NCBI GenBank assembly: GCA_913055745.1
Contig: CAJXJZ010000011.1
Coordinates: 1 to 46,861 of the forward strand
Direction: 5' to 3'
Origin: an uncultured bacterium
GTDB taxonomy: Bacteria; Hydrothermota; Hydrothermia; UBA1063; CAJXJZ01
DNA: 46,861 nucleotides
Shown piece by piece: positions 15,746-17,302 of the stretch. Every line of letters begins with the position of its first letter. The first letter of the stretch is position 1. The notes beneath the pieces were generated by a model. It worked only from the letters and a program-made list of their open reading frames with translations, was not told the origin of the DNA and made no database searches. Both the position numbers and the translations under genes were made by a program.

Positions 15746-16537
15746 TCATAACCTGGTACGGTTTTTGTTCTCCTTATCCTTTCTTACACATGCAAATGCA
15801 TTATGATTATGGATGGATTCGTAACTTGTAACCTGCACAAAGTACCATGTTATATTATCATTATGGTCTAATTTATGTGCCACCTCCCTTGCCACATCTT
15901 CAACGAATCTTGGATTGTCATATGCATGTTCTGTTATAAACTTCTCATCGGGTCTTTTTAAAAGTGCATATAGTGGTGATGATGCACTCTCTTCACCGTA
16001 TTTTATTAGGTCTTCTAACCATACCATTTTTTTCATTCTCACACTTATTAAGATTTTTGCCCTCTGATTATGCGCTCCTCTTTCGCTTATTTCCTTACTA
16101 CATGGGCACAGGGTATTGACAGGAACAATAACTTCGGTTATAAAATCAAATTTATTCCCTAACTCAGCCACGAATCTTGCCTCATAGTTCATAAAACTCT
16201 CTTCATGTGTAATGGGCGCCTTCTTTTTGATGAAATAGGTAAAGTTTATATCTACATGAGCCCTCTCTGCCTGTAATTTTAGCCTGATGTCGGAAAGTAG
16301 TTCTTTTATGTTGCGAGGAGTAATATTATCAAGATGGGCATTTAAAACCTCTATGAATCTGGACATGTGTGTGCCTCTATAGTTATGTGGTAGGTTGCAA
16401 TATAGATTTATCTTTGCGATGGTTTGCTGCATACCGTTTGCTCTGTCAAGTACCTTAATGGGATAAATGATATCCCTCACCCCAACGCGGTCTAAGGGTA
16501 TAGCATGATTCGCAGGCTCAGACTGAACATCTCTCAT
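15746..16537 (-). CDS. folE2: GTP cyclohydrolase FolE2 (type IB)
   Basis: FolE2 turns GTP into 7,8-dihydroneopterin triphosphate, the first step of pterin and folate synthesis, and replaces the unrelated FolE. The 263-residue protein shows the family marks R-V-G-V-R-D-I, N-L-P-H-N-Y-R-G-T-H-M-S-R-F (48-61) and N-T-L-C-P-C-S-K-E-I-S-x-R-G-A-H-N-Q-R, with metal-site Cys144/Cys146 and His156. It overlaps the PTPS gene upstream by four bases, so the two are coupled and probably act in sequence. Confidence 0.95.
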   Translation of the reverse strand: MRDVQSEPANHAIPLDRVGVRDIIYPIKVLDRANGMQQTIAKINLYCNLPHNYRGTHMSRFIEVLNAHLDNITPRNIKELLSDIRLKLQAERAHVDINFTYFIKKKAPITHEESFMNYEARFVAELGNKFDFITEVIVPVNTLCPCSKEISERGAHNQRAKILISVRMKKMVWLEDLIKYGEESASSPLYALLKRPDEKFITEHAYDNPRFVEDVAREVAHKLDHNDNITWYFVQVTSYESIHNHNAFACVRKDKENKNRTRL

Positions 16538-16899
16538 TTATTGTTCTCCTTTATATAGATGCAACTATCTTGGGTTTCACATACCCTAACTTCTGTTAAT
16601 TGGATATCCTTATTAAAATCGTAAGCCTTTGACCAGATAAATTCTGCTATATTTTCTGTTGTAGGGTTTGAAAAGATCTTATTTAAATCCCTTCCATCAA
16701 GAACACTTAAAATATCCCTTTTTATAAACTCATTGAGGTCTTTAAAATCCACTATTATACCGTCCTGGTTCTTTTTGCCTTTATATGTTATTGATACATA
16801 AAAGGTGTGTCTATGTGGAACCTCTGTGGTACCATTTATTTTAACAGCATGAGAGGCATCAAATTTAAATGATTTTCTTATATAATATTCCTTATACAT
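16534..16899 (-). CDS. 6-pyruvoyl-tetrahydropterin synthase family protein, PTPS-III-like
   Basis: This 121-residue T-fold protein keeps the zinc ligands His17 (F-D-A-S-H), His29 and His31 (P-H-R-H). The catalytic Cys of QueD (the C-x-x-x-H-G-H motif) is absent; Thr25 stands there. A Glu follows at 26, the position of the Glu in the C-E-x-x-H-G-H motif of PTPS-I/III and PTPS-III enzymes. PTPS-III is known to replace dihydroneopterin aldolase by making 6-hydroxymethyl-7,8-dihydropterin from dihydroneopterin triphosphate. Coupling to folE2 supports a folate role over queuosine synthesis. H-R-H instead of H-G-H is unusual. It overlaps the archease gene by eight bases. Confidence 0.82.
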   Translation of the reverse strand: MYKEYYIRKSFKFDASHAVKINGTTEVPHRHTFYVSITYKGKKNQDGIIVDFKDLNEFIKRDILSVLDGRDLNKIFSNPTTENIAEFIWSKAYDFNKDIQLTEVRVCETQDSCIYIKENNK

Positions 16900-17302
16900 C
16901 CATTACAACCTCGGTTTCATAAAAATTTTTATTTTTCTGTATGTGCAAATTGTGATATGTTATGGCTTTTACCTCTTTTTTTACTTCTTTTGTTGGATCA
17001 AATGGTTCGTAAGAATAATGACAATGTAAACTATTGGCTGAAATATGTAGATTGATTTGACATATCTTTCTTTTTTTTACAAAGGTTATATATAAAATTT
17101 CATCAAGAAAATCATGAAAAAGCATATCCAAATCTAAGGATTCAAGAAGGAAATCATCATATTCTGAACTTTGGCAGATAGGCTTTTCCAAAAACACTAT
17201 ATTATAGAGGGCATAAACTCCTTCTTTGAACAGAGACTCAATGGTATTCCCATATACCTTAATCCTTAGGTCTGCAGTATGGGATAATTCTTCGTAAGGC
17301 AT
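16892..17302 (-). CDS. Archease
   Basis: This 136-residue protein matches archease from end to end: Y-E-x-L-S-H-T-A-D-L-R-I near the start, a D-x-x-x-L-F-H-D-F-L-D-E-I-L-Y central helix, and E-V-K-A-I-T-Y-H-N-L at about 109-118. Archease activates the RNA ligase RtcB by helping its guanylylation, in tRNA splicing or RNA repair. No rtcB gene lies in the window. Its place before two pterin genes has no known functional reason. On the minus strand TAAAAT ends six bases before the ATG with no Shine-Dalgarno, so it may be leaderless. Confidence 0.88.
   Translation of the reverse strand: MPYEELSHTADLRIKVYGNTIESLFKEGVYALYNIVFLEKPICQSSEYDDFLLESLDLDMLFHDFLDEILYITFVKKRKICQINLHISANSLHCHYSYEPFDPTKEVKKEVKAITYHNLHIQKNKNFYETEVVMDV

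Follow-up and report, generated by a model that had tools for sequence, protein, structure and literature searches.

The genome that carries this locus, in which a profile search found no FolB, very probably uses a relative of PTPS and QueD, whose gene adjoins that of FolE2, to produce the intermediate that FolB would otherwise supply. We consider it highly likely that the products of its archease-PTPS-folE2 run carry folate synthesis through its first two pterin steps with no need of dihydroneopterin aldolase. Replacement of FolB by PTPS-III is an already known route. New here, and possibly not seen before by specialists, are the loss of the catalytic-triad His together with a drifting zinc motif, and the linkage to archease. 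A preliminary description of the PTPS and folE2 genes had its facts correct and very likely the function too; the overlap with the archease gene and the replacement of the triad His are two features that it did not contain.

The window (the whole stretch of DNA analysed, 46,861 nucleotides) comes from a WOR-3 assembly of 1.79 Mb that is 95% complete (G000), and the closest relatives that bear a name belong to candidate division WOR-3, their FolE2 proteins being 84-85% identical to the one here. On the minus strand of the window the gene order is archease, PTPS, folE2. The archease gene overlaps the start of the PTPS gene by 8 nt, and the proposed translational coupling of PTPS to folE2 is consistent with an ATGA common to the stop of one and the start of the other. 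The features are as follows.

16892-17302, minus strand: archease gene (Pfam Archease, E=1.2e-30)
16534-16899, stop codon included, minus strand: PTPS-III-like protein, 121 aa (Pfam PTPS, E=9e-23)
16849-16851, minus strand: His17, third zinc ligand, invariant in alignments A1 and A3
16822-16824, minus strand: Glu26, predicted catalytic Glu (ExxHxH), from alignments with PH0634, Plasmodium PTPS and relatives
16807-16815, minus strand: His29-Arg30-His31, two of the three zinc His, with Arg for the usual Gly
16693-16698, minus strand: Asp68-Gly69, with Gly at the usual place of the catalytic His of the Cys-Asp-His triad
16576-16578, minus strand: Glu108, C-terminal Glu conserved in alignments A1 and A3, which we take to be the pterin anchor
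16534-16537, minus strand: ATGA overlap of the PTPS stop and folE2 start
15746-16537, minus strand: folE2, GTP cyclohydrolase IB, 263 aa (Pfam GCHY-1, E=2.8e-92)
L001:1495-2603, on another contig of the same genome (C1): overlapping pair of QueD and QueE-like genes

The active site of the window PTPS agrees with what had been described: the QueD Cys is missing (Thr25 stands at its position), the Glu of PTPS-III is at the right place (Glu26-Val-Pro-His29, three residues N-terminal to His29 with ExxHxH spacing), and the zinc-motif variant H29-R30-H31 is real. The LDHxxLN motif reads LDGRDLN, so the Asp is kept and the triad His is replaced. In rat PTPS this His is reportedly part of an intersubunit Cys-Asp-His triad, as the title of a 1995 paper in the references of PMC2229834 also indicates. 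In alignments Glu26 lines up with the corresponding Glu in Pyrococcus PH0634 and in Plasmodium PTPS, and the zinc His, Glu26 and Glu108 are invariant across nine Cys-less sequences (alignment A1). The AlphaFold2 model of the protein has a mean pLDDT of 95.5.

Membership of PF01242 (PTPS / COG0720) is supported by 81 bits against a curated cut-off of 22.4. The PTPS-III motif appears as ExxHGH in PMC5041015; because H-R-H departs from this strict H-G-H, and the printed motif is thus incompletely matched, we name the window protein PTPS-III-like. The Asp-His pair of solved PTPS-III enzymes, LDH in PH0634, is likewise missing. Neither the Cys nor the HGH of the QueD (PTPS-I) motif CxxxHGH is present, and the Cys of the PTPS-II (biopterin) motif CxxxxxHGH is also lacking. 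An NCBIfam model for a PTPS subfamily gives the window protein 56.4 bits, below its cut-off of 125.5, under which the QueD of the same genome (83 bits) also falls.

Pyrococcus PH0634 (2dj6/2dtt), presumably the orthologue of P. furiosus PF1278, is the best PDB match of the window PTPS by sequence (2dj6, E=2.5e-16) and the best structural match of its predicted fold (Z 18.4, rmsd 1.3, 35% identity). Like the window PTPS, it has no Cys, places a Glu three residues before HxH and shares the fold, and one tree grouped it with the clade of the window PTPS at modest support; unlike the window PTPS, it is archaeal and retains H-G-H and Asp-His (LDHRNLN), and its substrate may be a monophosphate. PF1278 is named a PTPS-III in PMC5041015. 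In Plasmodium falciparum PTPS (1y13) a Glu also replaces the Cys and aligns with Glu26, but the protein is longer and retains H-G-H and LDHH. According to PMC2229834, the Plasmodium enzyme makes 6-hydroxymethyldihydropterin in vitro with pyruvoyltetrahydropterin as a second product; its Glu38 is required for the former, E38C and E38Q retain only the other product, and E38L yields no product. The PTPS-I/III hybrids (C-E-x-x-HGH) carry a Glu at the same place and often lie directly upstream of folE2; genomes with such a hybrid close to folE2 come from Synergistota, Smithellaceae/Syntrophaceae and, in one case, Spirochaetes, and WOR-3 family f6 has hybrids too. Unlike the window PTPS, they retain the QueD Cys, HGH and Asp-His, and may therefore serve two pathways. 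QueD (PTPS-I) has the fold and zinc site in common with the window PTPS, but possesses the full Cys-Asp-His triad of which the latter has only the Asp.

A profile search for FolB (PF02152) found none in the source genome, with the same search positive in 10 of 14 control genomes. FolK and FolP are present, their genes lying away from this locus, and both score over the respective NCBIfam thresholds (folK and DHPS). As the assembly is 95% complete, a folB might have escaped it, though none of the 40 genomes of the class carries one; from this and the empty search of the source genome we reject a FolB hidden there. The archaeal MptD was considered as a replacement and dismissed, PF04038 being absent from the genome. 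FolE was not found there either, and FolE2 is the only GTP cyclohydrolase I found. The FolK domain is fused to an Ogt (methylated-DNA-cysteine methyltransferase) domain in a 314-aa ORF (L004:949-1893, contig C42). Of the queuosine genes for which the preliminary description suggested looking, a QueE-like gene is present and queC was not found in the genome; the only weak QueC match, which we take from its sequence to be NadE, adjoins a gene that we likewise consider nitrilase-like. The QueE-like gene overlaps that of a second PTPS, a QueD of the Cys type (CQNLHGH, without the Glu). This arrangement suggests a division of labour between the two PTPS genes, the queuosine-type job being covered separately by the QueD beside queE.

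The linkage of the three genes extends beyond the window. In 18 genomes, from families f1, f5, f6, f7, f8 and f11, archease lies directly upstream of PTPS, the spacing ranging from -8 to +6 nt; it was not found at 12 Glu-type PTPS loci from f3, f4, f9 and f10, although at one of these the upstream sequence ends after ~0.6 kb. Downstream of PTPS stands folE2 in f1, f8 and f11, and in f5 a gene whose N-terminal sequence leads us to assume a CTP synthase. We know of no functional link between archease and PTPS, and found no paper, judging by titles and the starts of abstracts, that connects archease with folate or PTPS. From the FolE2 side, 31 of 80 loci (genome_contigs) include a PTPS, which shows Glu-type motifs at all but two of them (29), and in 19 of the 80 the PTPS stop is within 60 nt of the folE2 start codon. 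Since these close pairs span WOR-3, Synergistota, Spirochaetes and deltaproteobacterial genomes, the FolE2-PTPS pairing appears widespread; FolE2 beside PTPS-IV is also reported in PMC5445326. No queuosine gene was seen beside the Glu-type orthologues in the loci, which were read rather than annotated gene by gene. Neither part of the combination that would have spoken against the original proposal, a normal folB and orthologues clustered among queuosine genes, was thus encountered.

FolB counts across relatives support the folate role. Among 150 related genomes, FolB was detected in 26, FolK in 140, PTPS in 117 and FolE2 in 58 (57 over the family cut-off). PTPS was typed in 102 of the 117 PTPS-bearing genomes, with 15 left out: FolB accompanies none of the 31 Cys-less Glu-type cases, none of the 28 with both Cys and Glu, and 6 of the 43 without Glu (Fisher p=0.0045, kinship ignored). 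The last bin holds Cys-only genomes, tandem-domain genomes, and two genomes (G102 and G130) in which PTPS lacks the Cys as well as the Glu at these positions. Conversely, none of the 26 FolB carriers has a Glu-type PTPS, and the 20 outside the typed set have no PTPS match at all. It is this mutual exclusion that argues for a folate function; FolB is commonly absent in relatives without a Glu-type PTPS, so FolB absence alone is weak evidence. FolB is also missing from 37 of the 43 typed genomes lacking a Glu-type PTPS, with FolK in 36 of the 37, and all five genomes of sister family f2 (G004-G008) lack FolB and a Glu-type PTPS and keep FolK. Some other, third route must therefore exist in related families. 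We found no literature on dihydroneopterin aldolase in WOR-3. In f18, f34, f12 and f21, too, FolB and a Glu-type PTPS are both missing from most typed genomes, nearly all of which have FolK.

As its family suggests, FolE2 would convert GTP to 7,8-dihydroneopterin triphosphate. By analogy with PTPS-III enzymes, the Cys-less PTPS would bind zinc through His17, His29 and His31 and, with Glu26 as base, cleave the side chain directly to give 6-hydroxymethyl-7,8-dihydropterin, which FolK and FolP would carry on to dihydropteroate; the separate Cys-type QueD beside queE would serve the 7-deazaguanine branch. With two of the three triad residues, Cys and His, gone, the canonical PTPS/QueD reaction has probably been given up, leaving a dedicated cleaver. 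The aldolase-bypassing role put forward earlier is supported by the absence of FolB, the presence of FolK and FolP, the separate QueD, and PTPS-III structures with an aligned Glu, and both the activity and the substrate (tri- or monophosphate) are predictions. Because H-G-H and Asp-His both differ from published or solved PTPS-III enzymes, the predicted activity is not guaranteed.

One variant of this reading concerns the substrate. The same cleavage could act on dihydroneopterin monophosphate, with a phosphatase or phosphodiesterase working between FolE2 and PTPS, as the archaeal origin of the closest solved structure might suggest; archaeal members may use a monophosphate, according to PMC5041015. 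We regard this as unlikely, given that folE2 follows PTPS directly and that the cyclohydrolase scores above the bacterial FolE2 cut-off (NF010200, 279.7 bits, cut-off 215) and below that of archaeal MptA (TIGR00294, 160.7 bits, cut-off 220), a FolE2-type score from which we predict the triphosphate. It is quite improbable that an unrecognised enzyme does the folB job while PTPS makes some other pterin. Such an enzyme must operate in f2, if f2 makes folate, and the other families that keep FolK with neither FolB nor a Glu-type PTPS point the same way, but the source genome yielded no candidate other than the Glu-type PTPS, which is coupled to folE2.

A degenerate or regulatory PTPS, for example a non-catalytic partner of FolE2, would account for the lost triad His and the relaxed HGH, and also for the finding that among four genus members the non-synonymous change per site exceeds that in FolE2 by a factor of 2 to 6. 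Against it stand the invariant zinc His and Glu positions, a genome otherwise without a known enzyme for the step, and purifying selection on the ORF (pN 0.20, pS 0.90, window against G001), on which we also reject a pseudogene; we judge this account very improbable. That the protein is a QueD-type queuosine enzyme with a diverged active site is scarcely credible. Family membership and a weak match to the QueD model TIGR03367 (59.4 bits, cut-off 89.25) speak for it, but the missing Cys and triad His, the Cys-type QueD beside queE on another contig, and the loci free of visible queuosine genes led us to reject it.

We compared 85 single-domain PTPS sequences, leaving out tandem domains, domains shorter than 95 aa, matches with E above 1e-6, X-containing sequences and identical copies. 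All 58 Cys-containing proteins have H-G-H and Asp-His. By comparison, the triad His is missing from 18 of the 27 Cys-less Glu-type proteins and the middle residue is not Gly in 12. Each of these 12, the window PTPS (H-R-H, Asp-Gly) among them, also lacks the triad His; of the other 15, 6 combine H-G-H with a missing His and 9 retain H-G-H and His alike. Three relatives in the genus have H-G-H with Asp-Arg or Asp-Lys, or H-T-H with Asp-Cys, and a further case outside the class pairs H-E-H with Lys (G054). On a tree of 86 rows, with few columns and many weak forks, loss of the His requires at least 5 changes, 3 of them forced by well-supported branches.

We infer that once Glu replaces Cys the His becomes dispensable, and that the constraint on the Gly of H-x-H falls too. 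Tentatively, and with more doubt than the folate role itself, we propose that the folate PTPS of WOR-3 lost the Cys, and the triad His several times over, so that an enzyme with two products became a dedicated retro-aldol cleaver needing no more than zinc and a single Glu. The Gly of HGH would have been freed once the His was lost, the middle residue drifting to R, T, W, A, E, Y, P or K, and the enzyme would be translationally bound to archease in six families and to FolE2 in three of them. Neither PTPS-III without the His nor H-x-H variants came up in a literature whose coverage of PTPS subfamilies was incomplete, which makes this a weak negative; CxxxHGY is named for PTPS-II-like clusters in PMC5445326.

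Other PTPS forms also occur among the relatives. In f18 (L167, L169, L175) and f28 (L200, L201) there are more PTPS-like proteins that have neither the Cys nor the triad His; their zinc motif reads H-A-H or H-E-H, and their Glu is placed farther upstream than that of PTPS-III. Tandem PTPS domains, two to a single ORF of about 250-346 aa, occur in families f3, f5, f7, f9, f10 and f11 (L123, L128, L129, L130, L134, L137, L139, L147, L149, L153, L154).

If the proposal of a Cys-less and His-less cleaver is right, the reaction that replaces folB needs little of the PTPS active site, and nature would have supplied, in these lineages, a graded set of enzymes lacking the Cys and the His with which to approach the question of mechanism. 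The published ExxHGH motif would then miss real folate enzymes in uncultured phyla. Families that have folK but no known enzyme for the preceding step mark an open gap in folate synthesis.
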